Shown here piece by piece: positions 15,398 through 46,069 of a stretch of 61,817 nt of DNA. The DNA is taken from positions 1 through 61,817 of the IMG/VR virus record IMGVR_UViG_3300036906_000071. One strand, 5' to 3'. This DNA comes from a virus. How positions within the stretch are numbered: the first letter of the stretch is position 1; the number at the start of each line of letters is the position of its first letter. The notes under the pieces were generated by a model. It ran no database searches. It was not told where the DNA came from and saw nothing but the letters and a program-made list of their open reading frames with translations. Position numbers and translations under genes: made by a program.

Positions 15398-15405
15398 AAA
15401 AGTTT
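15398..15405. repeat. Target-site duplication of element 1 (copy 1)
   Basis: AAAAGTTT, repeated exactly at 16165-16172, directly outside the two inverted ends of the inserted element. Confidence 0.85.
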
Positions 15406-16164
15406 GGGACTTATATACTTGAGTCCCTTTCATACAAACTCCATGACTTGCTGCGCCATCCGCTTCGCGGCAATCTCGCAGTATTTCTCTTCCCGCTCGA
15501 TCCCGACCGCAGTCAACCCCGCGTCCTTCGCAGCGCGCAGCGTGGTTCCTGACCCACAATAGGGGTCTAGAACGGTCTTGGCAGTTGGGAAGAACATCAG
15601 ACACCACTTCATCAGAGCAACTGGTTTTTGAGTGGGGTGCAGCCTCTGTAAAGCCTCCGATGTACCTCGCTTGCGTTTGGCCTCAGCGCTGTCGGATTGA
15701 ATGCAAAGCCCGTTCCAAAGAAACCGGAATATGCGAAGTGGCTGATCCCGGGAAGTCCACGCCGCCTCACCATCCCCGAAGTCGTTAGAGGTAAGTCCCA
15801 CTTTTTTGTCCCACACAAGCCAACTCCCGGGAGGCAATTGATGGGCCAATTTATGCGCTCCCCAAATAACAGAGTTGTCCGCAACACTCGGAAGCCATGA
15901 AACATCTACCGCCTCGCCATCCCCGGTAACAGAGTCAGAAGTACTCCTCTCCCGATGAACCCAGTTACCATTTAGACCCGGGGCCTTCTTATTCCGAGGA
16001 CTTGGGGCTTTATAACTTTGGCCATACGGGGGATCAGTCAGCAGCAAGTCGAAGCGCGGCAGGGTCGGCAGTATCTCTCTGCAGTCGCCGTGGTATATCG
16101 TGCTACCCGCGTGCTCGTAGTAAGTCTTCATTCAGTCTCCAAGGGAGTCATGTATATAAGTCCC
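15406..16164. mobile_element. Cargo-carrying element 1: inverted repeats plus methyltransferase gene
   Basis: A 759-bp insertion. Its ends are inverted repeats, GGGACTTATATACTTGAGTC at 15406 and, on the other strand from 16164, GGGACTTATATACATGACTC; the first 24 bases match at 22 positions. A perfect 8-bp direct repeat (AAAAGTTT) flanks it. The only gene inside is the amino-methyltransferase, whose stop reaches into the left end; no transposase is present. Removing the element and one direct repeat joins the upstream HAD-like frame to a TAA that overlaps the ATG at 15382 (TAATG). Element 2 (45786-46061) shares the ends. Confidence 0.85.
15430..16131 (-). CDS. DNA amino-methyltransferase carried by element 1
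   Basis: A 233-residue protein. TDPPYG (motif IV) lies near residue 33 and DPYCGSGTT (AdoMet motif I) near residue 190, the beta-class order; DPPY favours N6-adenine methylation. It is shorter than the enzyme at 9609 and unrelated in detail. It fills almost the whole space between the inverted repeats and has no linked nuclease, so it is an orphan methylase acting as element cargo. Expression may come from the interrupted upstream gene, whose TGA overlaps its ATG. Confidence 0.88.
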   Translation of the reverse strand: MKTYYEHAGSTIYHGDCREILPTLPRFDLLLTDPPYGQSYKAPSPRNKKAPGLNGNWVHRERSTSDSVTGDGEAVDVSWLPSVADNSVIWGAHKLAHQLPPGSWLVWDKKVGLTSNDFGDGEAAWTSRDQPLRIFRFLWNGLCIQSDSAEAKRKRGTSEALQRLHPTQKPVALMKWCLMFFPTAKTVLDPYCGSGTTLRAAKDAGLTAVGIEREEKYCEIAAKRMAQQVMEFV

Positions 16165-16298
16165 AAAAGTTTCACAAGTTCCTGCCGTTCGAGGTCGGCT
16201 ATCGTGCGCGCCCCCTGCCAGCCGCTGCGGTAGCTGTGCAGCACACCGTCAAAGTCGATCGACAGAACCGGCTTTCCCTTCGTCAGGTCATTCGCCAT
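16128..16298 (-). pseudogene. HAD-like gene fragment interrupted by element 1
   Basis: The ATG at 16298 gives 56 residues with the HAD motif I, VLSIDFDGVLHSY, typical of phage HAD-like phosphatases. The last ~13 codons come from the element end. Without the insertion the frame would continue through LVKLFTEET to a TAA at 15384-15382. Even then it would be only about 61 residues, so most of the phosphatase had already been lost. Confidence 0.65.
16165..16172. repeat. Target-site duplication of element 1 (copy 2)
   Basis: AAAAGTTT, identical to 15398-15405. Confidence 0.85.
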
Positions 16299-16322
16299 TG
16301 CCGCCCCCCTGCTTTCAAATTG

Positions 16323-17078
16323 CTACACGATCACTGGCAGGTTGACGATCTCTTCTACTGTGCTGGTCTTGATCTTCTGTTCCAGCCATGCGGCGATGTT
16401 CTGCTGCGCGGTAAGCTTCCAGCGCCCGGCATCCGCCTCGAATAGTGCACAGTGGTTGCCTGCCCCCTCCGGCGACTTCACCCGGAAAATGAAATCGCCC
16501 GAGGGCTGCTCCACCTCCAGGAAGGTGCGGAAAGGCTTCAATGTCACCCGCGGCTTCATGGTCACAGTCTCAACCATGTGGACCCCGGACTTCACAGAGA
16601 CCTTCTGAGCAAAGCCATCGTCCTCCTGGCGCAGTTCGCTATCCTTGGCGATGTTGCCAGCCAGTTTCACCAGTGCGTCGAGATCCTCGTCCTGCACAAA
16701 CATCGAGCGCAGCGCGATGTTGAACTCCTCCTGCGGCATGAACTGGTTGAAGCGGAACTCCCGCTCTGGCTTCGGGGCCTCCGCCAGCAAGTAGTGCAGC
16801 CGCCGGCCATACTCGTCGCTCCTGGTGGCAACCAGAAACACCTTGTCGTGGTCGCATACCCACACCAGGGATGTCTTCGGATCGAAGCCCTCTACCTTGT
16901 TCTCCAGCATCAGCATAAACCCGGAGAGCGTGCTGACGCCCAGGGTCTTCAGCATCGGAGGCGTAAAGAGCGTGCAGGTCTTGTCTTTGTCGATGAGCTC
17001 GAAGCCGCGAACCTCGAGTACCTTTGCCGGAGCCAAACTAAGTATCCGGTCAATCGTCACTGGATTTACATTGTCCAT
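16323..17078 (-). CDS. Conserved phage protein of unknown function
   Basis: A 251-residue protein. Segments such as GVHMVETVTM, LKPFRTFLEVEQPSGDFIFR and CALFEADAGRWKL resemble a family of phage proteins related to DUF2303-type proteins, though that link is uncertain. It is paired with the 129-residue gene upstream (17135), as in other phages where two such genes are adjacent. No catalytic motif is visible. Confidence 0.65.
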   Translation of the reverse strand: MDNVNPVTIDRILSLAPAKVLEVRGFELIDKDKTCTLFTPPMLKTLGVSTLSGFMLMLENKVEGFDPKTSLVWVCDHDKVFLVATRSDEYGRRLHYLLAEAPKPEREFRFNQFMPQEEFNIALRSMFVQDEDLDALVKLAGNIAKDSELRQEDDGFAQKVSVKSGVHMVETVTMKPRVTLKPFRTFLEVEQPSGDFIFRVKSPEGAGNHCALFEADAGRWKLTAQQNIAAWLEQKIKTSTVEEIVNLPVIV

Positions 17079-17134
17079 CGGTCCTTCTCTCTGCCGGCTT
17101 GCGCCATGCGGTTGATGTGTCTAGGTGTGGAGCT

Positions 17135-17524
17135 TCAGTTTGTCCGGGTCTTTGCTGGAGGATCAATCGTCGGCCCGCTCATATCGAACTCAATCTCCGA
17201 CTGCTGCGTGTTGCGGCCAAAGGCCAGAAACTCCCCGTCTTTGTGGGCAAAGTACATATTCGCGGTGGCGGGTTTCAGACCGGCCAGCTTGGTCTCCACC
17301 TTTGCGTTGTACTCCGCGCCGCTGCGGTCCTTGTACGGGGTAATCTCGATCGACAGCAGAATCTTCCGCTTCTGTGTCGGCTCCGTGTTTGGGTCGGCGA
17401 CATTCGCCGCCAACCGCTTCAGTGCTTCGTTGAACATCTCGTACACGGCGCCCGACGCCATGTTGTCGATGCTCAATAACTCCGGTAGACCGTTGTGTAC
17501 CGGCGCTTCCGTCTTCTTCTCCAT
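17135..17524 (-). CDS. Conserved phage protein of unknown function
   Basis: A 129-residue protein. ANVADPNTEPTQKRKILLSIEITP and the following beta-rich segment match a recurrent small phage family, found next to a larger partner as here. It begins with a GGAGG-like site. Function unknown. Confidence 0.65.
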   Translation of the reverse strand: MEKKTEAPVHNGLPELLSIDNMASGAVYEMFNEALKRLAANVADPNTEPTQKRKILLSIEITPYKDRSGAEYNAKVETKLAGLKPATANMYFAHKDGEFLAFGRNTQQSEIEFDMSGPTIDPPAKTRTN

Positions 17525-17542
17525 CGCTTTACCTTCCTCCGT

Positions 17543-18414: not shown

Positions 18415-18563
18415 GTCAAGCAGTATATCGGCGCGCCTGTGCAAAAGTTTAGCCGCCGCACCGAAACCGGCAACACCGTCCCCTCTGCGCGCTCTATCAT
18501 CTTTTTATGCTTTTTTGCAATAATAGTTGTTTACAAGCGTAAATCCGTGCTATTCTGTGTGGC
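18415..18563. promoter_or_regulatory. Divergent promoter region
   Basis: It separates the long minus-strand early operon from the plus-strand operon and is AT-rich in its centre. On the plus strand an extended -10 (TGCTATTCT, 18549-18557) lies 15 bases after TTTACA (18530-18535). On the minus strand TTGCAA precedes TATAG-like boxes by about 18 bases around 18490-18520. Both are readable host sigma70-type promoters. Confidence 0.5.
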
Positions 18564-19565: not shown

Positions 19566-19580
19566 TCCACTGGAGGCAGC

Positions 19581-23533: not shown

Positions 23534-26500
23534 CTACGGGTTGCTGTCAACCTTCATTACATCGTTCAGCTCCGCCTCGAACGGCTCCATGCTTGCCGGG
23601 TCCTTCACATAGGCTTCGTTGGCCTTTTTCCCGATCACCCCCTGCAGCGCCGCGCGCTCCTCCGGGGTCGCCTTCTTCCAGATTTGCAGGTTCTGCTGCA
23701 GGCTCAGGCGCTTTGCCATCCGCTCCAGCGGCGGCTCAAAGGCCTCCTCCTGCGCCGTCTGGAACTCCCGCTCCGTAATCTTTCCGTCCACCAGGGCCTC
23801 GTTCAGCTTCCTGTCGTCCAGGTTGCCCGCCCGCAGCGCCTGCACCAGGTTGCGCTCGCTCTCGCTGTGTTCTGCCTGCTCCCGCGTGCGCGGCGCCTCC
23901 GGGTTCTCCTGCATATAGTGCTCCGCCAGGTTCATCGCACTGCTGTTCTGCACAATCTTCGTTGCCGGCTGGAAGCCCGCATAGCCCAGCAACCCCATCA
24001 GGCCCAAACTCTTCTTGGTTATGTCGCTAAATTCGCCGCCGCCGGCATTCTGCCGCTGCCGCTGCATGCTCTCGATCGAGAATGGCACATACTTGCTGGC
24101 AATATACTTCGCATACTCGCCCGCCTGGCTCGAGCCCAGGTTCCTGCTGAACCATGGATCGTCTTCGTTGCGGATCTGCCTTCCGTAGTAGTCGCTGTTC
24201 ATCATCATCTCCGCGGCCACGTTGATGCCGGGGCTGGCAAAGTTGAAGGCCGTCCGCCAGGGCACTGTGTTCTGCGCAACGTCCTCGCCCACCGCCATCA
24301 GGTTCTTGGTGTAGCCGGGAATGCTCAGCATCGTGCCATCCGGCGTCTCCACCATCGCATAGGCCTTCAGGCCATGCTTCTCCGTGTCTGGAGCATGGCC
24401 GGTCATCAGGTAGGTTGCCGCCGCCGAAAACATCCCAGTAAAGATCGGCGTAGCCAGGGAAAACGCCATCTTGTGCGTTAACTCCGGCCGCCGCCGCGCC
24501 GCCGCCCGCGCAAACGCCCTTGCCGTATCCGTCACCGCCCCGCCATACTCCATGTAGGTCCCGCTCTGCCAGCCCACACTGCGCACCCCCAACTGGGCCA
24601 GGTGCTGCGCCGTCTTGTTCCAGAAGCGGTTGTCGTAGATCATCTGGCCATAGCGGTAGTCCACGCTGTCCGATGCATCCTGCACCCGCCGCCGAATCTC
24701 CGCATCGTCCCAGCCGCGCCGCGTGGCCTCTGCCAGGATGTTTGCGGTCATGTCCTGCAACGTTCCAGCCTTGATCCGGGGAATCATCCCGCGCATCAGC
24801 CAGCTACCCGCCAGGTCGATCGTGGCCGGCACCGCCCCCTTCGCGCCCTTGAACCAGTCGCCCCGGCGGATGTCCTCCGTCACCTGCTTCCACCGTGGGG
24901 CGTCCAGCCGCAACGCCTGCTCCGGCCGCCACCCGCTGCGCGTAATCCAGTTCACCTCCGCCTGGTAGCGTGCCGCCGAGCCGGGATTCAGGTACTCGCC
25001 CATGGGCGCCACCGTCCGCTCCAGCAGGTTGTAGCGCGAGGGCCGCGCGCCAGCCTCGTAGTACTCCCGCAGCACCTTGTTGCCAACGTAGAGATGCCGC
25101 GCCACCGGGCCAACCGTGCTTACGCCCCGCGCAATATGCTTCGCCGCGCTCAGGCCCCGCCCCTGCAATGCCTCTTCCAGCCCCAGCGAGATGTCGCCAA
25201 TCGCCAGGTTGACGGTGCTGGCCGTTGCATGGAAGGCGCTCAGCGCCAGTTGCGTGGCATTCATCGAACGGTTTACATCGAAGGCCGCGTCCAGCATGGC
25301 ATTGCGCCCAATCAGCCCCTGCGACACAAAGTTGTTGAAGCTCTTCGCCGCCGCATCCGGAGCATAGTAGTGGCCATCCAGCACCCGCTCGCCATCGGCA
25401 TTCATGTGCGTCACCGTGGCAAAGCGGTCGTTGATCTGCGTCCAGTCCGCCGGCGCGTCCTTGGGCGATTTGAACATCCGCAGCAACCCCTGCCCCCGCA
25501 TCTGCTGGATCGTGTCCTGCGCGAAGATGTACCGCCGGATGGCCAGGTGCCGCTCCAGAATCGCGTCCACCGGGTTCCAGCTCTTCGGCTCCAGGTGGTA
25601 GTCCAGCGCGGTTTTGAAGTAGCGGATCTCGCGCGGCTGCAAAAACTTCTTGTTCCCGAAGATCGAGCCCTGCTTGCCAAACACCTTCGCATAGCCTGGG
25701 CTGCTTCGGTCCCAGATGTGCGGATAATGGTTTTGCAGGAAGTTCTGGAACTTCTCCGGGTCCAGCTTCTCCAGCGCGTGCCAGTCGTCCAGCCCGATGT
25801 TGTACAGCACCTTCGCCTGCTCGCGGTGCTTTGGGTCGATCTCATCGAACCGGCCATGCTCCCAACTGTCGATCATGTCGGCGGTCTTCGCCTTGGCCAG
25901 CCCCTCGAAGTCCTTGCGCATCTCGCCCAGCGACTGCTTCAACTGGAGCACGCTGCGGTCCATCTGCCCCCGCTTATCGCGCAGCAGCTCCCGCGTGTCG
26001 CTGCCTGCGTTGGGGGCCTCGTCGCGCCAGTCCGTGTAGGCGCCCAGCGCGCGCTTCCACACCGATGGCCCGCCCAGGGGCAGCGGCCGCTGCTCCTCCG
26101 CCGGCTCGGTGCGCTCGGGCCGCGGCATCGGCTCCCACTCGCCCCGGCCCTGCGCCTCCTTCACCCAGTCCGGCTTGTACTCCTTGTCTTCGGACTTCTG
26201 GAACATCGACACACCCTGCTCCCCCACCGCCTTACGCATCTCCGGCGTGATGTCCAGCACGGGTACTTTAGTAGCCGCACGCATCCGAACTTCGTCATTG
26301 GGTGAGTCCTTGTGCTGCGCCGCCTCTTCCGCAGTGTCCCATGGCCCAGCGTAGGATTCGGTCTGACCTGGGCGATAGATGTCGTACCCGCGATCCAGCT
26401 TTGTGCTTGGGGCATCCACAAACGTCTCTCCCACCTTCGCGCCCCACTGCTTGCCAAACTTCCGCGCATAGTCCGGCAGCATCTTGTCGTAGAAGCCCTT

Positions 26501-29500
26501 CATCCCCTCCCCGCCCACTCGCAGGTCTGCGTTGTGCAGAAACCTCGCCGCATAGGGGTTGTTTGGGTCTGGCTCGGGCTGGTCTAAGAGTTTCTGTGCT
26601 GCTTCTTTGCCGATGATGTCTGCGAGTCCATCCCGTGTGGTCTTTACGCTGTCCATCACGCGCCGATGGTTGAGGTCGGTTGCCGTGATGTCGAGATCGT
26701 CGCCGCGGCCATTCAGGGTTATGTCGTTGATCTGTTTGCTCAGGTAGTACCGCTTGGCCTGCTCTTCGCCCGGCGTCCAGCTCACCCCATCGTAGCCATT
26801 GTCCGCGGCGTACTTCACCGCCCGGCGGAAGGCCATCTCGTGCCAGTCCTTCTTGAAGGGCGCGTCGGGAACGCTATTGCCAAAATTGTGTCGTGTGCGC
26901 TCGTCTTCCAGTGCTTGCTCGGCCAGTCGCGCATCACGCCAGGTGTTGATGCTCTGAATATCTCTCGGGTCGGTCACATCCCATCGTTCAGCCCAGTCGG
27001 GATGTCCAAGCACTGCGCTTCTGGCTTGCCCCATCGTGTCATATCCAAGATTGTCTGATCTGTTAAACGCGGCCACTGAGTCTGCAGCGGTGACAGATCG
27101 GAGATCATTTGCTGCTTTGTATCGTGCAGTAAACTCTTCCGCTTCAGGAGTTTTATACCCTCGTGCCCGCCCCTTCTGGTGCCAGTCGCTCTGAATCTCC
27201 TCGATGTGCAGCAGCTTCTTCCCATCCGGCGCGGTGCGGTCGTTGAAGCGGATGTGCGCCAGCACGTCATCTTCAGCCCAGTGGCCGCTATGAAACGATT
27301 GCCCACGTTCCAATCCCATGGCTGCGCGGGTGCCGGGCTTAGCGCGGCTAGCCGGATCAGAAAGTATCAGCAGCTTCTCCCGGTAGTTCTCCCCGCCAGG
27401 CAGGGTGTAGGTGCCATACTTCGGCTCTGAACTACGATCGCTCTCGGAGCGTTCAGACAATGCGCGGCTGTTCATTAGGTTTGTCAGATAGTGGGCGGCG
27501 CGTATTCGCGCACTGCCTACGTACCCCTGATCAACCTGAAACTCGCGGCCTGTGTTTGGATCGTTGGCCACATACTGGTGCTCGGTCTTCCGCACATCGC
27601 TAGCTTCCAATCGCACCTGTGGGCGTTCCTTGGGTACATGGTCGCCCTTTGTCACCTCTTCCACTTTGATTGTGTTCTCGGCCAGGTGCTGTTGCACCTC
27701 GGCGGGCGTCACCCTCGGCCTGCCGCGCAGCTCTTCCAGCCCGCTCCACTTCAACTCCTCGGCCTTCACGCCGTTGTTCTCCAGCATCCGCACCAGCGCG
27801 TCGCCCGGCATCGGCCCCTTCATCTTCTCGCCCAGGATGCGCGCGCTCTTCAAAAACCACGGATTCTGCCGGTTCGCTTCCTTGTCCTCCACAGCCCGCT
27901 GGAAGAGAATGCTTCCCTCACTCCTCGGCGCATCGTCCCGGGTCTGGATGGTGTAGACCTTTGCTGGTAGCTGCTCGCCCTGCCGCTTGGCATACTCTGC
28001 GCGATGCGTTCCCTCATACAGCACGTCGCCGCCCGCTGTGCGCACAACCTCCGCCGCTGGAAAGTCCTTTGCGCTGACATTCGACCTCTTCCAGTCCGCG
28101 AGCTTGCCTTCGCGCGTCCAGTCCTGAAGCCGCGTCAGCTTTGCCGGATCGACCGCCTCCCGCTCAATCGACAGGATCTTTACGCCCGGCTGGTTCTTCA
28201 GCCAGTGGTCCAGCGTGTAGGCACCCGTCTTGCCCCGGGTCAGCATGTCCACTACTTTTTCGTTTGGCTTCTCTTCCGTCCGCTGGAAGAGCGTGTCCTG
28301 CCCGCCCGCGCCCGTGCCAAAGAATAGCGGCGACTCCCGCTCCATCTGTCCCGCTTTTTTGCTGATGTTCGCGCCCGGCTCCCGCAGCCGCTCGGTCAAC
28401 TCCCGGCCCTGCTGCTCCGCCTCGGCCTGCGCGCGCTCCGCATCCGCGCCCTCCATCCCCGGCAATGCCCGGCTCGGCGGCGGCTTCGGCGGCTGGAGGC
28501 GGCTGCCTTCCCGCGCACTTCGATACTGTTGATGGCTGAGACGATAATCCCCGCGATCCCTGCCGGCGGTCTCCTCTGCCTGCGTGCGCGGACGCACTTC
28601 AGCCTGCCGGGCTTGTTCTCTGAGGCGCTCAAGTTCGCCGTCCAGTTGGTCGAGAAGGTCGTTGGCGCGGGCCTCCTGTGGGCTGCCCTCTTTCGCCGCA
28701 CTGTAGGCACGGGCGGCCTTCTCCCAGCGCTCCTCCGCATCCCGGATCGCAGCATCGCGCGCTGTAACCTCCTCGCGCTCCCGCACCAAATCTTCCATGC
28801 CAGGAAAAGCAACCGAAGTGCCTTTCAGGGGCTCATATCCCGCAGGCCGCGCCCGCTGGAAGGCGGGCGGTATCGGTGGCTTGCCTTGTTGCGCTCTCTT
28901 TTCGAGGATACGCTGTGCCGCCTGCACTGCTTCATTGTCGGGATGCCCCGCTGCGGTACGCGCCAGCCGCTGGCTCTCTGTCATCTCGCGGATCTCGCCG
29001 GCGGCCAGCGCGTGGCTGTAATCCTGGCGCAACGCTTCACGCCGCTCGGTCAGAGCGGCATCTTTCGCATCTTGATTTTTGAGTGCCGCTTTCCAAGATG
29101 TGTGGCTTGTGCTGCTGTTGCTCCGTGAGAGTGCCGGGTCCCCATATCCCTGCCGTCCAGCATCGTGTTGCGCCGCGTAGTCCTCAAAGTCTCGGTAGAG
29201 AGGTGTGGTCAGTTCACCTTGCGGCGCGCCGCCTTCTGAAACACCTCGTTCGCCACCTTCAGCAATGGGTCGTCCTCCACCCCGGTCATGTGGACCGGCC
29301 CCATCTGTTTGGCGAACTTCGCCCCCAGTTTGTCCACCGCCGCCTCGTGCCGCCGATGCACTGCGTCCCGCAGCGCCTTGGTTGTACTCGTCGCCATAGT
29401 CGTACCCCCTGCGTACCTCGTCGATCACCGCCTTCAACCGCGGATCGGTCTCCGGCAGGTCCTGCAGAATCCCAGGCCCTTTTTCTTCCACAGCCTCGGT

Positions 29501-32500
29501 CAGGAACGAGCGTACCATACTTACGCGCTCTTCGTCGCCGATTTTAAACGCTGGATCGCCCGCCATGGCCTTCGCCATCAGCTCCATCGCCACCACCGAT
29601 GGCTTGGCCTCTCTATAGCCTATTCTGCGCAGCCCATCGGCAATCTCCGCAAATTCAGGCTGATCGGCCACGCTGGTCATCGCGTAGGAGTTGTCCAACC
29701 CATGCTCGCGCTGCCACTGGTGCGCCGCCTCCTCCCGCGCCGTGTCCCCGCGGTAGTCTCCGCGCAGGATCGAAGCCCCACCCTGCTCGTTCTGCGCCTC
29801 CTTCAGCAGCTTCACCATCCGCTCATAGCCCGCCCGCGCGCCCTCGTCCGGCATCCCCAAAGCGTCTAAATCCCCCTGGACTGCCTTCATAAACGCAATG
29901 GCCGTGTTGACCTGTTCCTTGGTCAGCGTCATCCCAGTCCAGCTCTGCCGCGCGCCCAGCAGCTTGCCCAGCTTCGAGTCTTTGATCTGGCCAAACAGCC
30001 GGTGCCACACCCCCTCGCCGTCCGCATCCAGCACCAGATGCTTCCGCCCGCCCGCCTCCACCACCGCGCTCTTGTGCGCTGCGGCGTTCTCGTGCTGGTC
30101 GCGGCCAACAGCGGCGGCAAGTTGAGACTTGCGGTTGGAAGCTCGCGTCTCGTTCTCTGCAATTTCTTTGTCTTGGGGGTTTAGTACTTGACTCCGAACT
30201 TCGGGTCGTCCTTCGCCCGCTTGTGCAGATCCTCGATCCCCTTCTGTGCGATCTCGCGGGCCACCTGCTTCAGTGGCACCTGCTGCGCTGGGGAGGATAC
30301 TTGGGGCTTCGGCTGCTGCATAGATTGCCTTTCCTCTGTCACCATCAAAGACCCCCTTGTCCTTCAGGGCCTTTAACTCTTCCTGCATCTGCTGTGCTAC
30401 TTCATCCTGCTTCAATTGTTTCATTTCCTCGAGCGTTTGTCGAGTGTTTTCCAGAAGTTTTTCGCTGCCCTTGGCTCCGGAGTTATCGATCCCCTGGACC
30501 CCAATCTGGTCTCCGTACTTGTCCATCATGGCCAGCAGGGTCTTTGGCAGGTCGGTGTAAGCCTTTGCCATGTAGTCCACATTCACCGTGCGTCCAATGC
30601 CCGGCTTGCCATCGTGGCCTACCGCTCGCATCACCATCCGGTTGACCGTGGTTTTGGGGTCATCCACATAGATCCAGCGAATCACCGGCCGGCGCCCGCT
30701 CGCCAGTATCTTGTCAATCAGGATCGAGGAATCCTTTGGGTCGGTCATAATGTCTTCCACCCGCAGTCCAACCCTCGATTCCGCCTCTGCACTCTGAGTG
30801 AAGGTCTTCCCACTGCCAGGGCTTGCCGTCACTATGTCCACCATATCCTTACCGGCTTTTACCGGCGCCGCCAGTTCTGTGTTGAGGGCTGCCGAGGCAA
30901 CCGCCGCGGCTGAGGTGTGGACGTCGCGCTCAGCGCGCGTTGGGTCTTTCTGAAAGTCGGAATACATCTCCTTGGCCGCATCCGTCGCAATCGTGGCAAC
31001 CCCGTCGACTGAATGCTTGGCTAGGTACTGGTCCACCAACTTCGGCAGGTTCTCTTTGGTGTAGTTGATGTTGGCTTTTTCTGCGTCGCTGCCCGTCACT
31101 GGCGCCATGGACCCTTTCCGCTGGTCTGGCCCCACATACCGTTTGCTACCGGCTTTTACCGGTTCGGGCAGGCGCATCTCACCCACCGGCACATTGCGCA
31201 CCTTTGTTCTGGCAGCGTCGTCCAGCGTCACCCGTCCGCTGGCTTTGTTCCCATTCCACCCAGGGTTGTAGTGTTCCAGCGTGCCCGGCCGCCACTCGCC
31301 GTCCGGGCCGCGAACCTCCACTGGCGTCGACTGCCTCCCCGCCGTCCACGCTACTCTGCGTTCTGCTGACCCGGCTCCGGCTGCTGCTGCTGCTGGGCGC
31401 TCGGCTCCGGCTCTGCGGGTGGGGGGGATGGGGGGACGGCCGGCTGGCCGTGCTTGCGCAGCTTCTTGAACTCCCGCACGGCCGCTGTCTGCTCCGCCAG
31501 GGACAGCTTTTGATAGCTCTGCCCGGATGTCGTCGTAGGCTCGCTGTTTGATGCCATTTGCGTTCCCTCCGTCCGCCAACTCTCTGGCCGCGCGGTTCAG
31601 GATATCGTCAATTGTACCCCCGCGCGTGCTCAGTCGATCGTAAATTTCTTGCGCCTGCGCCGCGTCGCGCGCGATCCTGGCATTCTCTTCCGGCTTCAAC
31701 TGCTGGCCCTCAACCTTGCCCAACATCGCCGCTTTGCCTGTATCGGCCACGCTCTGGAATGTCCGCCGTTCCTGCGCAATCCTGTCGCGCACAGCACTCG
31801 AAATCTCCGCCTTCTCCAGCGCCAGGCTGCGCGTCATCTCCTGCGCGCCAAACAATCCCTGCTGTGTCTCGGTGGTCTGTTGCGCACCTTTCACCATCCG
31901 GGCGAGTTCGTCGACCACATCGTCCGTAACCTTGCCGCCCTTCGCCTCCCGCTTCTGAATCAGTTTGACGATGGCTTCCTGGTCCGCCGCGTCCGCCGTG
32001 GCGTTGCCAATGGCAATGGCCCGGCCCTGGCGGAGCTTGCCGCTTACTACCTGATCGAATAGGCTGGGGTCCAACCGGCTTAGCGCAACCCCGTTGGCCG
32101 CCGTTGCCTCACCCATGCTTATTCCCAAGTCGTCCAGCTTCTCCGGGGTAAATCCCGAGTCGCGGAAGAACTTCGCGGCATCCATCGCCGTCCCGCGCCC
32201 TTCGGCTATGTTCTGCAGCGCTCCCACCGCCCGCGCCGCCGCCGCCGTCGGTGCGTCGATCTTCTTCACATCAATGTCCGGTACACCGTTCTCCTGCGCC
32301 AACTGTAAGCGATGATGCCCATTCACCGCGTAAGTTTTGCCAGTCTCAGGGTCCTTCCATACACTGACAACCCCGGCCAGGTCGTTGTTCCACTTCCGTC
32401 CCTTTAGCAGGTTGGTCACACCAGATCTGTCAGTGTTCATCTTGTACTGAAAGCGCTGAGGATCGAGCGTGATGTCACTTACCGGCATTCGCACCACGCC

Positions 32501-35194
32501 GTCAGCCTTCTGCGCTTCGGAGATGGCCGGCTCGCTCGCCACCGGCAGCGTCACCCCCTGCACTCCGCGTGCGGGTTCTGGCGCTACGACTTGCGCTTCG
32601 CGGGTGGCTTCGGGGCGCGCGGCGGGAGCTTCCGCCCCTTGCTGGCCTGGTTCCACTCCTCCACGTTCACCCCCTGTTGCTCCAGCTTCTTGCGGTGGGC
32701 GTTGAAGAACGCCTCCTGCGCCTTGCTCCGGTACGGCATTGGCTGTCTCCTGTCTCGTCCGCGCCGCTTGCTCGGCCGCCTCGTGCTGTTGAATGATCTT
32801 GCGCTCCAGTACCTCGGCCTCGGCGTCCTTGCCCTGCTGGCGAAGCTCCTGGGCCTTGCGGTAGTCGTCGTGCGTCGCCTCCGCCGCGCGCTCCATCTCC
32901 GGCGTCTGGATCAGCACCTCGGCCCGCTTCACCGGCTCATTTTCCACACCCGCTTCGCGAGCAGCTCCCTCAGTGTTGACAATGGCTTGCGTCTGCCGGA
33001 CGGCATTCTTGCCCGGCTCGCCTGTTACCGTGCCGTTCACGCTCTCCACCGGCATCGTCTGGTCCAGGTTCCGCAGCACATGGTCCGCCGCCGCCTGGTC
33101 CGGCACCGTCACCTTCGCGGCTGCAATATCACCAATTTGGCTCGGTGCTACGCCCTGCTCTTCAGTTTTATTGATGATGCGCCCACTGTCTTTTGAGTCA
33201 CGCACCGCCTTCAAATTCGCGCCGGGTACTCCTTCGGTTGCCGCCTCCACCGCATCTCCAATGTGGGGTGCTTGCCTCTCCGCGCTCGCGCGCAGTGCTT
33301 CCACATCGTTTGTGGCGTGAAGTGGCGGCTTTCGCGCGGCATCTGCCATGACTCGCCGCTGTCCCTCGGAGTTTATCTCAGAGGGTGAACCACCACCCTG
33401 GACTGCCTCCGCAACGCGCGTAGCGGCCTGCTGCGCCCGATACTCTGCCACCGCCTCCGGTTTGATGGGTAGTACCTTGTCCATCACCCCCTCAACTCCA
33501 CCCTTCACCGCATGGCGCGCGGCCATCCCAGCCATCGCACCATCGATGATTGCCGAGGTAGCCAGCGCTGCCGCTTTCTCATGGTCGCCAGCCTGATAAG
33601 CCTTCCATGCCTCCGGCGTCTCTTGAATCACCCCGCGCGCCATCTGTCCGCCAAAATACAGGCTCACCAACTTCGATTCCGGCATGGTGGCAATCAGCGC
33701 AGCTTGGTCAAGCCGGCTGAAGTCGCTGAGTTTGTCGCGTACAGCTTTGGCCACCGCACCTGGGATTCCAGTAGAGCTCTGCCTCCAATTTCGGGTCAGC
33801 AACTCTCGCTGTTGCGGAGTTAGCCTGGTTGGGTCAATGTTCCCTTTGGCAGCCTCGCCCTTCAGCACTGCAACCTGGTCCTGCTCCTCGGCGGTCAGCG
33901 GTACATCGCGTGGGATCAGACGTGGGACGCGCGATTCAAGATCGGCGGTGGTGGTTGCCTTCTGTTGGCCATACTGCTGCTCCTCGGCTGGAGTCAGACG
34001 ATGGATGTTGCCCAGTTGTGCGCGGTCTTTGTCGGTGAGTAGAAGGCTCTGGACAATGCTCCCGTAGCCCTCCTTCTCCATCGGCACACCCTGCGCAGCC
34101 ACGTCGCGCGGTGTAGGCAGGGGTGCCACTGTGGGCGATGCGGGAGTATAGGGCTGGATGTGGGGTGCTGTACGTCCGTTGATGTTGGGCAGCGCCGCTT
34201 GCTGTTCATGGAGTTGCTGGGCATAGGCTGTGGCATGTTCCGGTGTGTCGAAAATACCAATGGTTTTGCCGTACTTCTGATAGTAGGCTTCAGCCTCTGA
34301 GGGTTTGCCGTTGATGCGCTTATCGGACAGAATATGAGGCGGTTTTCCATCCTCGCCGTCGGTGACGCGCGGCACTAAAACCTCACCCTGATCCGTTCCA
34401 AAGCTGGTTGACCAAAGTGTGCTTGACTGATTGGGACCAGCCTGGGGATTGGGAACAATCGGGCGATCATTGATGTTAACGTTGCTGCTGCCGTGTTTCA
34501 TCCCAACCGGGTTTCCCCACACTGTCTGGGGCACACTGGCGCGCACCTGTTGCGCTTGCTGGCCCATTGTTGTAGGTTCTGGCAGCTTCGGAAGACGGTA
34601 GGCAACATCCCCCGCGTGCTCACGCGCAAGCTCACGGTTGGCGCCCTCCTCCAGACTTTGAGCCTGAAAGGGGCTGGCCGGCGGCGGCGCGAGCGGGGCG
34701 GGACCGGGGGCATTCAGGGGATTGTCGGCAGTGGTTGGTACGGGGGCTTGACCGGGCCGCGCCAGCAGTTGCGGCAGAGTCGTAGGAGCAGACTGTAACT
34801 GATACTGTGTATCGCGGGCGGCGATAGGGGTTGCTGGGCGAGGCGCTGTGTATAGGAATGGGTTGGGGGGCTTGGGTGCCCCACCCGCCGCTGCCTGTGG
34901 TGCAGCAACCCCACTATTTGCAGGAGATATGGGTTTATTGGGATCGCCACTTGAGCGCATACCCACCGGAGCACCAGAGACTCCTCTGCTGTAGACCGTG
35001 GGCGTAAACCCAGCCTCGGTCTGCTCCATTGTGGGGTATCCCAGTGGTTGAGTTGGAGGGTGTAAAGCATCCGGTGCGGTTGCCGACCCGATGACCTTAT
35101 ACCCGTCGGGGATGTCGCTGTAGGCCGGCGGCGGGGCCGATGGCAGTACCTTGTAGCCATCCGGCACATCGCTATATTGCTGGCTACCGTCCAT
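23534..35194 (-). CDS. Giant polyvalent virion protein
   Basis: A 3,886-residue protein; the ATG at 35194 shares a base with the upstream stop (TAATG). The N-terminus has two copies of a YSDxPDGYKV motif. Near 900 there is a ParB-like domain (GVVRMPVSDI, VNGHHRLQLA). Near 1455 there is a zeta-toxin-like P-loop (TASPGSGKT), and near 1820 EEAAHQWQ suggests a metallopeptidase. Near 2660 lies the conserved IEEIQSDWHQKGR module. The last ~700 residues resemble the LPD38-type domain of polyvalent proteins. Such proteins are carried in the head and injected with DNA to defend it. Linkers overlap four small genes. Confidence 0.85.
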   Translation of the reverse strand: MDGSQQYSDVPDGYKVLPSAPPPAYSDIPDGYKVIGSATAPDALHPPTQPLGYPTMEQTEAGFTPTVYSRGVSGAPVGMRSSGDPNKPISPANSGVAAPQAAAGGAPKPPNPFLYTAPRPATPIAARDTQYQLQSAPTTLPQLLARPGQAPVPTTADNPLNAPGPAPLAPPPASPFQAQSLEEGANRELAREHAGDVAYRLPKLPEPTTMGQQAQQVRASVPQTVWGNPVGMKHGSSNVNINDRPIVPNPQAGPNQSSTLWSTSFGTDQGEVLVPRVTDGEDGKPPHILSDKRINGKPSEAEAYYQKYGKTIGIFDTPEHATAYAQQLHEQQAALPNINGRTAPHIQPYTPASPTVAPLPTPRDVAAQGVPMEKEGYGSIVQSLLLTDKDRAQLGNIHRLTPAEEQQYGQQKATTTADLESRVPRLIPRDVPLTAEEQDQVAVLKGEAAKGNIDPTRLTPQQRELLTRNWRQSSTGIPGAVAKAVRDKLSDFSRLDQAALIATMPESKLVSLYFGGQMARGVIQETPEAWKAYQAGDHEKAAALATSAIIDGAMAGMAARHAVKGGVEGVMDKVLPIKPEAVAEYRAQQAATRVAEAVQGGGSPSEINSEGQRRVMADAARKPPLHATNDVEALRASAERQAPHIGDAVEAATEGVPGANLKAVRDSKDSGRIINKTEEQGVAPSQIGDIAAAKVTVPDQAAADHVLRNLDQTMPVESVNGTVTGEPGKNAVRQTQAIVNTEGAAREAGVENEPVKRAEVLIQTPEMERAAEATHDDYRKAQELRQQGKDAEAEVLERKIIQQHEAAEQAARTRQETANAVPEQGAGGVLQRPPQEAGATGGERGGVEPGQQGAEAPAARPEATREAQVVAPEPARGVQGVTLPVASEPAISEAQKADGVVRMPVSDITLDPQRFQYKMNTDRSGVTNLLKGRKWNNDLAGVVSVWKDPETGKTYAVNGHHRLQLAQENGVPDIDVKKIDAPTAAAARAVGALQNIAEGRGTAMDAAKFFRDSGFTPEKLDDLGISMGEATAANGVALSRLDPSLFDQVVSGKLRQGRAIAIGNATADAADQEAIVKLIQKREAKGGKVTDDVVDELARMVKGAQQTTETQQGLFGAQEMTRSLALEKAEISSAVRDRIAQERRTFQSVADTGKAAMLGKVEGQQLKPEENARIARDAAQAQEIYDRLSTRGGTIDDILNRAARELADGGNANGIKQRAYDDIRAELSKAVPGGADSGRAGVQEAAQARPAGRPPIPPTRRAGAERPAAAAAGAGSAERRVAWTAGRQSTPVEVRGPDGEWRPGTLEHYNPGWNGNKASGRVTLDDAARTKVRNVPVGEMRLPEPVKAGSKRYVGPDQRKGSMAPVTGSDAEKANINYTKENLPKLVDQYLAKHSVDGVATIATDAAKEMYSDFQKDPTRAERDVHTSAAAVASAALNTELAAPVKAGKDMVDIVTASPGSGKTFTQSAEAESRVGLRVEDIMTDPKDSSILIDKILASGRRPVIRWIYVDDPKTTVNRMVMRAVGHDGKPGIGRTVNVDYMAKAYTDLPKTLLAMMDKYGDQIGVQGIDNSGAKGSEKLLENTRQTLEEMKQLKQDEVAQQMQEELKALKDKGVFDGDRGKAIYAAAEAPSILPSAAGATEAGGPRDRTEGDRGSAQAGEGRPEVRSQVLNPQDKEIAENETRASNRKSQLAAAVGRDQHENAAAHKSAVVEAGGRKHLVLDADGEGVWHRLFGQIKDSKLGKLLGARQSWTGMTLTKEQVNTAIAFMKAVQGDLDALGMPDEGARAGYERMVKLLKEAQNEQGGASILRGDYRGDTAREEAAHQWQREHGLDNSYAMTSVADQPEFAEIADGLRRIGYREAKPSVVAMELMAKAMAGDPAFKIGDEERVSMVRSFLTEAVEEKGPGILQDLPETDPRLKAVIDEVRRGYDYGDEYNQGAAGRSASAARGGGGQTGGEVRQTDGAGPHDRGGGRPIAEGGERGVSEGGAPQGELTTPLYRDFEDYAAQHDAGRQGYGDPALSRSNSSTSHTSWKAALKNQDAKDAALTERREALRQDYSHALAAGEIREMTESQRLARTAAGHPDNEAVQAAQRILEKRAQQGKPPIPPAFQRARPAGYEPLKGTSVAFPGMEDLVREREEVTARDAAIRDAEERWEKAARAYSAAKEGSPQEARANDLLDQLDGELERLREQARQAEVRPRTQAEETAGRDRGDYRLSHQQYRSAREGSRLQPPKPPPSRALPGMEGADAERAQAEAEQQGRELTERLREPGANISKKAGQMERESPLFFGTGAGGQDTLFQRTEEKPNEKVVDMLTRGKTGAYTLDHWLKNQPGVKILSIEREAVDPAKLTRLQDWTREGKLADWKRSNVSAKDFPAAEVVRTAGGDVLYEGTHRAEYAKRQGEQLPAKVYTIQTRDDAPRSEGSILFQRAVEDKEANRQNPWFLKSARILGEKMKGPMPGDALVRMLENNGVKAEELKWSGLEELRGRPRVTPAEVQQHLAENTIKVEEVTKGDHVPKERPQVRLEASDVRKTEHQYVANDPNTGREFQVDQGYVGSARIRAAHYLTNLMNSRALSERSESDRSSEPKYGTYTLPGGENYREKLLILSDPASRAKPGTRAAMGLERGQSFHSGHWAEDDVLAHIRFNDRTAPDGKKLLHIEEIQSDWHQKGRARGYKTPEAEEFTARYKAANDLRSVTAADSVAAFNRSDNLGYDTMGQARSAVLGHPDWAERWDVTDPRDIQSINTWRDARLAEQALEDERTRHNFGNSVPDAPFKKDWHEMAFRRAVKYAADNGYDGVSWTPGEEQAKRYYLSKQINDITLNGRGDDLDITATDLNHRRVMDSVKTTRDGLADIIGKEAAQKLLDQPEPDPNNPYAARFLHNADLRVGGEGMKGFYDKMLPDYARKFGKQWGAKVGETFVDAPSTKLDRGYDIYRPGQTESYAGPWDTAEEAAQHKDSPNDEVRMRAATKVPVLDITPEMRKAVGEQGVSMFQKSEDKEYKPDWVKEAQGRGEWEPMPRPERTEPAEEQRPLPLGGPSVWKRALGAYTDWRDEAPNAGSDTRELLRDKRGQMDRSVLQLKQSLGEMRKDFEGLAKAKTADMIDSWEHGRFDEIDPKHREQAKVLYNIGLDDWHALEKLDPEKFQNFLQNHYPHIWDRSSPGYAKVFGKQGSIFGNKKFLQPREIRYFKTALDYHLEPKSWNPVDAILERHLAIRRYIFAQDTIQQMRGQGLLRMFKSPKDAPADWTQINDRFATVTHMNADGERVLDGHYYAPDAAAKSFNNFVSQGLIGRNAMLDAAFDVNRSMNATQLALSAFHATASTVNLAIGDISLGLEEALQGRGLSAAKHIARGVSTVGPVARHLYVGNKVLREYYEAGARPSRYNLLERTVAPMGEYLNPGSAARYQAEVNWITRSGWRPEQALRLDAPRWKQVTEDIRRGDWFKGAKGAVPATIDLAGSWLMRGMIPRIKAGTLQDMTANILAEATRRGWDDAEIRRRVQDASDSVDYRYGQMIYDNRFWNKTAQHLAQLGVRSVGWQSGTYMEYGGAVTDTARAFARAAARRRPELTHKMAFSLATPIFTGMFSAAATYLMTGHAPDTEKHGLKAYAMVETPDGTMLSIPGYTKNLMAVGEDVAQNTVPWRTAFNFASPGINVAAEMMMNSDYYGRQIRNEDDPWFSRNLGSSQAGEYAKYIASKYVPFSIESMQRQRQNAGGGEFSDITKKSLGLMGLLGYAGFQPATKIVQNSSAMNLAEHYMQENPEAPRTREQAEHSESERNLVQALRAGNLDDRKLNEALVDGKITEREFQTAQEEAFEPPLERMAKRLSLQQNLQIWKKATPEERAALQGVIGKKANEAYVKDPASMEPFEAELNDVMKVDSNP
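29209..29397 (-). CDS. Nested small gene 4 inside the giant gene
   Basis: A 62-residue charged helical protein (MATSTTKALRDAVHRRHEAA) in the +1 frame. AGGGGG lies 7 bases before the ATG. Its codons are strongly G/C-ended, while the giant frame here has poor third positions and reads as Gly/Arg-rich filler. Function unknown. Confidence 0.6.
   Translation of the reverse strand: MATSTTKALRDAVHRRHEAAVDKLGAKFAKQMGPVHMTGVEDDPLLKVANEVFQKAARRKVN
30181..30345 (-). CDS. Nested small gene 3 inside the giant gene
   Basis: A 54-residue protein in the +1 frame, with a GGGGG site 6 bases before the ATG. The second half (VAREIAQKGIEDLHKRAKDD) is an amphipathic helix. The giant frame over this stretch is low-complexity (Gly/Arg/Glu). 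Function unknown. Confidence 0.6.
   Translation of the reverse strand: MVTEERQSMQQPKPQVSSPAQQVPLKQVAREIAQKGIEDLHKRAKDDPKFGVKY
31351..31557 (-). CDS. Nested small gene 2 inside the giant gene
   Basis: A 68-residue protein in the +1 frame with GGAGGG 7 bases before the ATG. It has a helical centre (LAEQTAAVREFKKLRKHG) and a Pro/Gln-rich tail. The giant frame here is Ala/Gly/Arg filler. Confidence 0.6.
   Translation of the reverse strand: MASNSEPTTTSGQSYQKLSLAEQTAAVREFKKLRKHGQPAVPPSPPPAEPEPSAQQQQQPEPGQQNAE
32584..32739 (-). CDS. Nested small gene 1 inside the giant gene
   Basis: A 51-residue basic protein in the +1 frame, with AGGAG 7 bases before the ATG. MPYRSKAQEAFFNAHRKKLE and VEEWNQASKGRKLP follow the pattern of a common small phage protein family, which is the best evidence that these nested frames are real genes. 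Confidence 0.7.
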   Translation of the reverse strand: MPYRSKAQEAFFNAHRKKLEQQGVNVEEWNQASKGRKLPPRAPKPPAKRKS

Positions 35195-36654
35195 TATGCC
35201 TTCACCCACTTGCCGTTGGTCTTCACTTCAACCGTGCCATCCGGTGCCTGGCGGTGAGTTCCGTCCGGGGCTGGCTGTGGTTTTGCTGCGGCGTTTGGTG
35301 CTGCTGGCGCCGGTGCAGCAGTATCCGGTTTCCACGATCCATCCGGTTGAATGGTCATGTGGTTAGCCGTGCCGCCAGCTTCTTCGAGGGCAGATTCGTA
35401 CTTGTCCTGGGCCTCCTGCATGTCCGCCAACCAATTCTGTAGTGTATACCGCCCCCCTGCCTTATCCCTCCTGTCGCGTAGCAGGGTCGTCGCAGCATCC
35501 ATTGCAGACTTCTTTTCGTCGAGTATCTTGTTGGCGAGGGCCGGAGGAATCGGTGCGCCGGAGCCTTTGTCTGGCCGCCCTGCCGCCGTGGTATTGATCT
35601 GCTCGAGTGCCTCCATGGTTAGCTTCTGGCCGGGGTTGTTCTGCCGCCAGACGCTCAGTGCTTGGCTGCGCGCAATCTCCTCCGCCGTCGCCTGTCGCGG
35701 GTCGAAGAGCTTCCCATTCGCCCTGAAGAAGGTGGCATTTTGCCCCGTCAGCCCCAGCCGGTTCGCCTGCGTGTTCCATGCGTCGAAATTCGCCAACATC
35801 TCCAGCGACTTTGCCTTGGCCTTGGCCTCCGGCGTCTCGTTTGCATTCCGCGCCGCCGCATCCACAGATTCGTTCGCGTTCTTCACATTCGCGTTGGCCC
35901 CGGTTGTCAGGTCGCCGGCCAGCTTGCCGCTCGCGTCAATCTGCTTTGCCTTGGCGGCTGTCGCGTCCACCCGCGCCTTCCAGGCCTCCTTCGCCACCGC
36001 CGCCTGGGCCTGCGTATCGCCAAGCTCCTGCTTCCGCTCGGCCTCTTCCCGCCCATAGCTGGCGTTCGGCGCGCCATAGGCCGTCCCGCCGCGAATGTCC
36101 TGCGGCTCGATCGCGCCCACCAGCCCTCCGGGAATCCCACCCGTCAGGTATCCAACCGCGCCCGACCGCACTCCCCGCCCAATCCGCTGCATCACGGTCG
36201 GCTTATACTGCGCCAGCATCGCTCCCGTGCCCTCGCTCCGCCCCGCCGCCGTGTCCTCCGGCGTCATCGTCCGCAGCGGCGTTGGGGCGCTCTTCGCCGC
36301 AGCCTTCTGGTTCAGCGCATCCAGTTGTGGATTGTCTGTCGGGATCTCGTTCTCCGCCCCCGCAGCCGCCCCCATCTCCCGCTGCAAGCCCGCCAGCCCA
36401 GCCATGCTGTAGTCCTGCGCCGTCGTCGGCGATGCCGTCGCCGGAATGGGCGCTGCTGCCGCCGGTGCTGAAGCTCCGGCCGGCGGAGGCGTTCCCTGGC
36501 CGGCGGTCTCCGCTCTGGGATAGCCCTGGCTATAGGCTGGCACGGGGACATCCCGAATCGCCATCAGCTCATCGATCGACAATGGCGTTGCCGCGCTGGG
36601 ATACTTCGCCAGATCGCCCGAATCCAGGTTGCTGCTGTACTTATCGTCCGCCAT
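35194..36654 (-). CDS. Internal virion-like coiled-coil protein
   Basis: A 486-residue protein rich in Ala, Lys and Gln, with a Pro/Ala-rich N-terminal third, a short Gly-rich hydrophobic patch (~155-175) and long helices. The C-terminus has a DGSWKPD / DGTVEVKTNGKWVKA repeat-like end. It sits between a tail-associated gene and the giant gene and overlaps both (14 bp and 1 bp), as ejection proteins of short-tailed phages do. The role is inferred from position. Confidence 0.65.
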   Translation of the reverse strand: MADDKYSSNLDSGDLAKYPSAATPLSIDELMAIRDVPVPAYSQGYPRAETAGQGTPPPAGASAPAAAAPIPATASPTTAQDYSMAGLAGLQREMGAAAGAENEIPTDNPQLDALNQKAAAKSAPTPLRTMTPEDTAAGRSEGTGAMLAQYKPTVMQRIGRGVRSGAVGYLTGGIPGGLVGAIEPQDIRGGTAYGAPNASYGREEAERKQELGDTQAQAAVAKEAWKARVDATAAKAKQIDASGKLAGDLTTGANANVKNANESVDAAARNANETPEAKAKAKSLEMLANFDAWNTQANRLGLTGQNATFFRANGKLFDPRQATAEEIARSQALSVWRQNNPGQKLTMEALEQINTTAAGRPDKGSGAPIPPALANKILDEKKSAMDAATTLLRDRRDKAGGRYTLQNWLADMQEAQDKYESALEEAGGTANHMTIQPDGSWKPDTAAPAPAAPNAAAKPQPAPDGTHRQAPDGTVEVKTNGKWVKA

Positions 36655-44895: not shown

Positions 44896-44900
44896 CGCCT

Positions 44901-45593
44901 TTAAAACGCGGAAAGCTGAAAATCCTCTCCGCGGCCTACCTCTATCGCTACCTGGTTGCGGAACCGCTGCGCCGCCCGGCTCAGCGACCCCAGCACCGGA
45001 CCCACCATCGCCCGGCTGGTTGCCGCCATGCTCTCCTCGTACATTCCGGCAAGCCGCGAGCGCTCATACGCCTCCTCGGCCAGTTCGCCCTGCAAATAGG
45101 CGTCCCAGTCCTTTGGCCGCTCCTGCTCCTGGCGCATCCACTCCCGCACCCGCGCCCGCAGGTCCCCGGCCGCCTCGATCGCCGGCCATGGCCCGTCCAG
45201 CATGAAGTAGTCTCCGGCCCGCGGCACGCCCTGCATCATCCGCGTTCGCCCGTCCGCCCCGCTGCGCTGCGCGTCGTAGAACTCCTCGCTGCCCCACGAG
45301 CTCGCCGGAAACCAGCGCTCCAGAATCCATCCCTGGAACTTGTACCGTGGAACGTAAAACACGCCCTCCTGCACCCGGTCCGGCGCGGGCAACGCCACCT
45401 CCAACCCCCGCCCCGTCCACTTCTCCTCGCCGCCGCTGGGCATCGTGCGCAGTACGCCCTCCACCCGCAGCCGCTTGGCCTGCGCCAGAATCATCCGCCA
45501 CAGCGGACGTCCGTCCGGCGTGGCACCGCCATAGGCGCGCAGCATCGCGCGGACCCGCGCCGGTGTCTCCATCTCCAGGCAGTCGTCAGCCAT
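44901..45593 (-). CDS. Hypothetical virion-block protein
   Basis: A 230-residue protein starting at an ATG that shares one base with the PGDYG gene stop (TAATG). It is mixed alpha/beta, with a helical C-terminal third. No motif is recognised. Position suggests a head or connector accessory. Confidence 0.6.
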   Translation of the reverse strand: MADDCLEMETPARVRAMLRAYGGATPDGRPLWRMILAQAKRLRVEGVLRTMPSGGEEKWTGRGLEVALPAPDRVQEGVFYVPRYKFQGWILERWFPASSWGSEEFYDAQRSGADGRTRMMQGVPRAGDYFMLDGPWPAIEAAGDLRARVREWMRQEQERPKDWDAYLQGELAEEAYERSRLAGMYEESMAATSRAMVGPVLGSLSRAAQRFRNQVAIEVGRGEDFQLSAF

Positions 45594-45777
45594 TAGACAG
45601 CCTCGTAGGTCTTCTCAAAGATGTCGGGTTTACAGGGATAGAAGTGTTCTCCATCTGGTTCAGGAATAACAAAATCTCCGAGTTCTAGATTAACCAACTG
45701 CCCAGCATGAATGGTGTGGACATGAGGTTGATCGTTTCCAGATGTAAAGCAGGACATAGAATTACACATCCCCTTCA

Positions 45778-45785
45778 CTAGTTTT
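45778..45785. repeat. Target-site duplication of element 2 (copy 1)
   Basis: CTAGTTTT, repeated exactly at 46062-46069 outside the inverted ends. Confidence 0.85.
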
Positions 45786-46061
45786 GGGACTTATATACTT
45801 CAGTCCCTTTCTCCTAATCGACCCTGCGATATACGCCCGCAGTTAGCACTAACTCTTCGGGCACAAACATTTCCTTGATTGGACCGCCATGCGCATAGCC
45901 GGTGGCCAGGTTCAGAGATTCCAGCCCGACAAGATTTTGGGTGCCGACTACACCGAGATAGACCCCGGCGATGCAAAGGCGTTGCGACCTGCAATTACAA
46001 CGTCACCAACCTTCATTTTTGGTTCTCCTTTTCCCGTAAGGGATTCAAATATGTAATTCCC
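45786..46061. mobile_element. Cargo-carrying element 2: inverted repeats plus one small gene
   Basis: A 276-bp insertion into the PGDYG gene. The ends are GGGACTTATATACTTCAGTC at 45786 and, on the other strand from 46061, GGGAATTACATATTTGAATC; 20 of the first 26 bases match. An 8-bp direct repeat flanks it. Each end also contains its own short palindrome (GGGACT with AGTCCC). The left end is almost identical to that of element 1. The only cargo is the small gene at 45814-46016. No transposase is present. Confidence 0.88.
45814..46016 (-). pseudogene. Cargo gene of element 2, frameshifted
   Basis: A strong AAAAGGAG site precedes ATG at 46016. The frame (MKVGDVVIAGRNAF) stops after 22 residues, but the -1 frame continues sensibly (IAGVYLGVVGTQ, PIKEMFVPEELVL, AGVYRRVD) to TAG at 45814. 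The break falls at a TTT near 45970. A one-base loss, a sequencing error or recoding could explain it. The intact product would be about 67 residues. Confidence 0.6.
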
Positions 46062-46069
46062 CTAGTTTT
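46062..46069. repeat. Target-site duplication of element 2 (copy 2)
   Basis: CTAGTTTT, identical to 45778-45785. Confidence 0.85.

Follow-up and report, generated by a model that had tools for sequence, protein, structure and literature searches.

Transposase-less gene cassettes with IS1595-type ends in a phage genome and their relatives in environmental viral records

Two inserts in a phage genome are, with good confidence, mobile insertion cassettes (MICs) of an IS1595-family transposon. The whole stretch of DNA that was analysed, here called the window, comprises 61,817 nucleotides (IMG/VR record IMGVR_UViG_3300036906_000071), and its 127-bp terminal direct repeats are what a complete phage genome assembled as a circle would show. 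Each cassette consists of a single passenger gene enclosed by two 22-nt ends and is free of a transposase. According to the proposed mechanism, a DDE transposase of the IS1595 family that is encoded elsewhere, in a host copy, a prophage or a co-infecting phage, would recognise these ends and place the cassette into an AT-rich 8-bp target that is duplicated on insertion. The cassette is polar: a Shine-Dalgarno sequence and a start codon follow directly on its 5' end, and the stop codon often comes from its 3' end. The cargo would probably be transcribed together with the phage operon in which it landed and expressed in this way, sometimes with translational coupling. Among the larger cargo proteins, methyltransferases and Mom-like enzymes make up more than half; they would alter the modification of the phage DNA and could thereby permit evasion of restriction.

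Two inserts with common ends in the window

Both inserts (15406-16164 and 45786-46061) terminate in 22-nt inverted repeats, and each is flanked by an exact duplication of its 8-bp target. The end pattern, allowing up to three mismatches, gave eight matches in the window (both strands counted), all of them at the four element ends, with a chance expectation of 0.08. The features are as follows.

Element 1 and its surroundings
15382..16298, minus strand: small gene interrupted by element 1 (MANDLTKGKPVLSIDFDGVLHS..., HAD-like by eye), in parts 16173-16298 and 15382-15405
15398..15405: target-site duplication, left copy, AAAAGTTT
15406..16164, minus strand (taken from the cargo): element 1, a 759-bp transposase-less cassette
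15406..15427: 3' end (terminal inverted repeat), GGGACTTATATACTTGAGTCCC
15430..16131, minus strand: cargo 1, a 233-aa DNA methyltransferase (N6_N4_Mtase PF01555, E 6e-19; phrog_67, E 3e-42)
16136..16140, minus strand: Shine-Dalgarno sequence GGAGA of cargo 1, directly inside the 5' end, called from sequence
16143..16164: 5' end, GGGACTTATATACATGACTCCC read inward
16165..16172: target-site duplication, right copy, AAAAGTTT

Element 2 and its surroundings
45593..46128, minus strand: 83-aa gene interrupted by element 2 (MAKYRKKPVVIEAEQYV...), in parts 46070-46128 and 45593-45785
45778..45785: target-site duplication, left copy, CTAGTTTT
45786..46061, minus strand: element 2, a 276-bp transposase-less cassette
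45786..45807: 3' end, GGGACTTATATACTTCAGTCCC
45814..46016, minus strand: cargo 2, a small ORF starting MKVGDVVIAGRNAFA..., disrupted by what looks like a 1-nt frameshift
46025..46029, minus strand: Shine-Dalgarno sequence AGGAG of cargo 2
46040..46061: 5' end, GGGAATTACATATTTGAATCCC read inward
46062..46069: target-site duplication, right copy, CTAGTTTT

Each insert sits inside a gene, and both cargos and both interrupted genes are encoded on the minus strand. Joining the flanks after removal of the element and one duplication restored a 49-aa frame (MANDLTKGKPVLSIDFDGVLHS...) at element 1 and the 83-aa frame MAKYRKKPVVIEAEQYVEYGKL/VKGMCNSM...EKTYEAV at element 2. The compact methyltransferase of element 1 contains the motifs DPPY and DPYCGSGTT. 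The frame of the interrupted upstream gene crosses the element end, and its stop codon TGA overlaps the methyltransferase ATG. The frameshift in cargo 2 appears to reflect either a pseudogene or a sequencing error. An IS1595 transposase (PF12762) was not found in the window.

A previous sequence-only reading of this DNA had grouped the two inserts as one family of transposase-less elements with 8-bp duplications at AT-rich targets. The shared 22-nt ends, the lack of a detectable transposase in the window and the exact duplications bear this out. Its description of the elements as MITE-like has to be replaced, since the elements are filled by intact ORFs, the methyltransferase among them. Carriage of passenger genes makes them MICs and not MITEs: a passenger gene lies between inverted repeats, a transposase gene is lacking and the target is duplicated. 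An internal palindrome (GGGACT...AGTCCC) had also been proposed as a shared feature. It is perfect at the left end of each element, but imperfect at the remaining two window ends and not conserved family-wide, where most ends have a mismatch within it. As a terminator the palindrome was rejected as a general feature: the 3' end can fold (-7.0 kcal/mol), but no T-run follows and most ends pair imperfectly. Pairing of the Shine-Dalgarno sequence with CUCCC of the end is possible, yet no better than in shuffles.

Further copies and an IS1595-family transposase

IMG/VR was scanned for exact matches to GGGACTTATATACNTNANTCCC, which gave 113 stretches, for a wider pattern, and for a second end type, which gave 51 stretches. 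With copies of one site merged, at least 83 distinct insertions are bordered directly on both sides by an exact 8-bp repeat; the sequence-only reading had staked the family on the existence of such duplicated copies. Among the insertions listed, 26 encode a transposase of about 306 aa and 57 are without any trace of one. The A+T content over the eight duplicated bases of the insertions listed is 70, 97, 86, 75, 75, 86, 97 and 70%, compared with 35-47% just outside. The 57 transposase-less elements listed span 276-1951 bp with a median of 539 bp, and a further cassette, from a Granulicella MAG, has 211 bp and encodes 50 aa. Of 85 inverted pairs of neighbouring ends in viral loci, 57 had an exact 8-bp direct repeat that abuts the two ends. 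The same repeat at shifted offsets was never seen in 1,360 control comparisons (16 offsets for each of the 85 end pairs), and the reversed end pattern had no match among 50 viral records. Metagenomic assembly and the frameshift of cargo 2 might raise the suspicion that the inverted repeats arose by chance or that the inserts were created by the assembly. The many end pairs with duplications in independent assemblies and the absence of control matches already refute this reading, to which we assign a vanishingly small probability.

Cassettes and transposons with the identical end pattern occur at 30:21 in viral and 2:16 in cellular records (p=0.0007, shared contigs removed). A single terminase profile was present in 18 of the 50 cassette-bearing viral records. 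These viral records come from metagenomes, and some of them are fragmentary or duplicate a contig that had been binned as bacterial. In cultured phages (INPHARED) the end motif had weak chance matches only, the best of them between tRNA genes in Rhizobium phages.

Two representatives of the transposase matched DDE_Tnp_IS1595 (PF12762) and Zn_ribbon_IS1595 (PF12760) of Pfam and NF033547 (transpos_IS1595) of NCBIfam; the remaining transposases of the 26 carry the same conserved motif. Full-length elements with the same ends, which the sequence-only reading had suggested looking for, were thus recovered from viral and cellular records alike, the latter being genomes or MAGs of Acidobacteriota, Pseudomonadota, Chloroflexota and Bacteroidota. 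As the transposase lies within 26 elements with the same ends, the mobilising enzyme can likely be named. An enzyme of another family with a merely coincidental IS1595 match would be a very improbable mobiliser. IS66-, ISL3- and IS256-like transposases also produce 8-bp duplications, but 26 viral elements (among those listed) and 17 cellular ones hold an IS1595-family transposase inside the same 22-nt ends, with 8-bp duplications. The relatives thus combine the transposase, AT-rich 8-bp duplications and ends starting with GGG, as expected for the IS1595 type. Without a transposase of their own, the window inserts are derivatives of the IS1595 family and not IS1595 elements proper.

Mobilisation of the cassettes in trans by an IS1595-family transposase appears to be the likely route. 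The 5' (right) end of element 1 matches the ends of elements with a transposase, for example L008 and L025, at 22 of 22 positions, and related cargo occurs at unrelated sites. PF12762 was missing from 40 of the 50 cassette-bearing viral records, over the family cut-off in nine and weak in one, although many records are fragments, so that a missing transposase there is no proof of absence. Together with the window, these 40 records argue for action in trans, strongly so for the window phage. The sequence-only reading had assigned the enzyme to the host. Its lack in the window and in the 40 records agrees with this, but viral records carry the transposase too (26 of the at least 83 insertions; nine of the 50 records). 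We found no transposase-bearing element with the exact cassette-type end pair (GGGAATTACATAC / ...GAGTCCC); those that come closest deviate from it by 1-3 nt at each end. In a tree built from 40 transposases, viral rows are interspersed among cellular ones (eight changes, at least three of them forced). This mixing may partly come from viral records of MAG-like origin. Transposase relatives in cultured phages reach at most 38% identity, and among plasmid transposases there are many IS1595 relatives, none above 60% identity.

Several loci carry signs of past movement. Cargo pairs or groups with 70-87% identity (L007/L178, L030/L164, L020/L074 and L295/L311/L240) lie at sites without flank similarity. 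The gene split by a C5-methyltransferase cassette in L188 is whole at the homologous position in L123, L132 and L173, with 72-77% identity across the empty-site junction. Locus L030 contains two abutting cassettes and three copies of the 8-mer CTATATTG, which indicates that the second insertion took place at the duplication of the first. For element 2, the search for an empty site yielded one capsid relative (63%), which is without the interrupted gene beside its capsid gene, and the search with the gene next to element 1 yielded no relatives.

Polarity, orientation and cargo of the cassettes

Beyond what the sequence-only reading had described, the cassettes have a built-in ribosome-binding site, a polarity and a cargo biased towards DNA modification. 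In 30 cases C occupies position 9 (as in GGGAATTACATAC) at one end but not at the other, and in 29 of them the end with C lies 5' of the cargo. A Shine-Dalgarno sequence with a start codon at nt 21-75 from the 5' end was found in 45 of the 57 cassettes listed, and the same test from the 3' end was positive in one of 57. The usual 5' junction is ACTCCCTTGGAGG, shortly followed by ATG. The start codons mostly fall at nt 33-54 from the 5' end and so leave no space for a full promoter within the cassette; a -10-like TATATA is present in many ends and may serve in a hybrid promoter. At the opposite side, the stop codon and the last residues often come from the 3' end (RDSSI, RDSCI, RELSI; also DSSI, DSCI, ELSI).

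The cargo shares the strand of the surrounding genes at a ratio of 45:3 in the 48 scorable cassettes compared with 14:9 in 23 transposase-bearing elements (Fisher p=0.0012). Genes were called with a simple codon model made for the analysis, and the cargo strands of element 2 and of L045 were set by hand, the 45:3 total being the same before and after. Using end polarity alone, independent of any ORF call in the cassette, the ratio of same to opposite strand was 21:4 (p=0.0009). The expressed orientation that had been proposed from the two window inserts therefore extends to the family. As the stretch ahead of the start codon is too short for a full promoter, expression would depend on the operon transcript, and under this dependence mostly same-strand insertions would persist. 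Opposite-strand insertions that disturb phage operons may also give rise to a strand bias.

These properties bear on the alternative that the cassettes are decay derivatives, i.e. transposons that lost their transposase and kept a passenger by chance (tIS leftovers), and show no specialisation towards phages or expression. Passengers, among them a methyltransferase and PAPS-reductase-like proteins, do occur in transposase-bearing elements from these collections, and the ends of such elements overlap with those of the cassettes. However, the cassettes have their own 5' end type with a 29:1 polarity, the ribosome-binding site is nearly fixed (45 of 57), the 3' end often provides the stop codon, and transposase remnants were undetected in the 57 cassettes listed. 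We consider decay an unlikely origin, though one that retains some weight.

About 19 of the 35 cargo proteins of at least 100 aa in the cassettes listed belong to DNA-modification families, namely N6_N4_Mtase, Dam, MethyltransfD12, C5 DNA_methylase, other phage methyltransferases and Mom-like proteins; this set includes sub-cut-off Pfam matches to Mom (L052, L099) and Dam (L020, L074). Among 78 flanking genes, none of the best 25 families was a DNA-modification family, and weaker single matches are possible beyond these. The remaining cargo comprises NUDIX, MazG-like, PAPS-reductase-like and cysteine-dioxygenase-like proteins, a lone TnpB and many small unknown proteins. A suspected recoding of TGA in L051 came down to chance open frames in several frames. 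Judged by sequence, the DNA-modification cargo is best read as serving to change the modification of phage DNA and thus to evade restriction.

Relation to known systems and significance

Known MICs include MIC231 of Bacillus cereus, of which MIC231A1 is moved in trans by the IS231A transposase, and the plasmid-borne mic-qnrD and mic-qnrS2, of which mic-qnrD has its own promoter (PMC3913671, PMC3129680). The cassettes share with them a passenger gene between transposon ends, a target duplication and the lack of a transposase (PMC3913671, PMC3129680). Whereas known MICs belong to other IS families and reside in bacterial chromosomes or plasmids, those described here have IS1595-type ends and reside in phage genomes. 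They further differ in their polar ends, the built-in ribosome-binding site, the lack of space for a full promoter and the DNA-modification cargo. Passenger-carrying IS1595 members are known as well: transporter IS (Siguier et al. 2009, as cited in PMC3129680), tISCpe8 and MTnSag1 (PMC5704250) and ISApl4 (PMC12561309). As far as the accessible parts of these descriptions go, they have the transposase family, AT-rich 8-bp duplications, GGG ends and passenger genes in common with the cassettes, but encode a transposase, which the window inserts do not. The 22-nt cassette end also differs from the ISApl4 end given in the accessible part of its description (GGGGCTGTACTAGA, PMC12561309), though both start with GGG. 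The same parts of these descriptions (PMC3129680, PMC5704250, PMC12561309) contain no phage cassettes.

Integron cassettes of phages (CALINs) resemble the present ones in having small genes with methyltransferases in the cargo and in occurring in virulent and temperate phages, but involve a tyrosine integrase and attC sites without target duplication (PMC9892861). The promoterless single genes with methyltransferase cargo recall these CALINs (PMC9892861) and could suggest integron-like or intron-like homing or recombination instead of transposition. Varied AT-rich, exact 8-bp duplications, inverted ends and a DDE transposase within the same ends speak against this, and its probability is slighter still than that of a mobilising enzyme from another family. 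Insertion by an integron leaves the target unduplicated; here exact 8-bp duplications accompany inverted ends. We thus retain the assignment to transposition by an IS1595-type enzyme. Phage morons usually come with a promoter and a terminator of their own and lack transposon ends, and anti-restriction genes, among them mom of phage Mu, are accessory genes of which some alter phage DNA. The cassette cargo likewise consists of accessory genes, some of them DNA-altering, but unlike morons it is enclosed by transposon ends.

In the open-licence literature, preprints excluded, we found no earlier report of phage MICs or IS1595 cassettes. The family, widespread in environmental phages, appears to be an undescribed variety of MIC that is polar, ready to translate and located in phages. 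It displays a strong bias to the expressible orientation and provides a concrete mechanism for the uptake of accessory genes by phages. The cassette ends offer a handle for listing cassettes in metagenomes, and their cargo, in which DNA modification accounts for about half and small unknown proteins for most of the remainder, constitutes a list of candidate anti-restriction and counter-defence genes. The cassettes could also account for the sporadic methyltransferases of phage genomes. With about even chances, they may form a phage-specialised cassette economy, in which IS1595 transposases of hosts or other mobile elements would power polar, promoterless, ready-to-translate genes in trans, and environmental phages would swap DNA-modification and small, possibly counter-defence genes between unrelated genomes, as a transposon counterpart of integron cassettes.

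Large genes and repeats of the phage

Besides the methyltransferase that forms the cargo of one of its two insertion cassettes, the phage encodes a second, larger DNA methyltransferase, whose motif regions are separated by a long spacer and whose gene is not within any cassette.

Window 9609-11132, strand -: second DNA methyltransferase, 507 aa (phrog_67)
Window 12904-14574, strand -: full-length GroEL chaperonin (phrog_5725, E 7e-118)
Window 23534-35209, strand -: open reading frame of 3891 aa, about one fifth of the genome
Window 5089-5147 and 7775-7833: inverted repeat of 59 nt, 97% complementary, with 2.6 kb between the copies
Window 11780-11848 and 12109-12177: direct repeat of 69 nt, 96% identical, with its copies in adjacent small genes

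The inverted repeat could permit inversion, or it could stem from a duplicated gene fragment.

Cassette and transposon ends in cellular records

In Sphingopyxis indica DS15, a transposon end lies at the contig edge in six contigs (L217, L219, L223, L252, L253 and L254), a pattern that a multi-copy element interrupting the assembly would be expected to leave. Three contigs from metagenome-assembled genomes (L212, L236 and L258) are identical to IMG/VR records (L045, L156 and L141, respectively), so either viral contigs have ended up in bacterial bins or bacterial contigs among the viral records.

Translation signals and unusual cassettes

The Shine-Dalgarno motif GGAGGG at cassette 5' ends (e.g. 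L040:351-384) is complementary to CUCCC of the same end, and the cassette end could therefore mask the ribosome site; this pairing was no better than in shuffled sequences.

One cassette (L080:2001-3178) carries TnpB as its sole cargo, with OrfB_IS605 and Cas12f1-like TNB domains, and is, by its predicted domains, a case of a nuclease carried on IS1595-type ends. At another locus (L030:469-1964), two cassettes stand in tandem and in the same orientation, with CTATATTG present in three copies. This arrangement possibly represents the beginning of cassette arrays.
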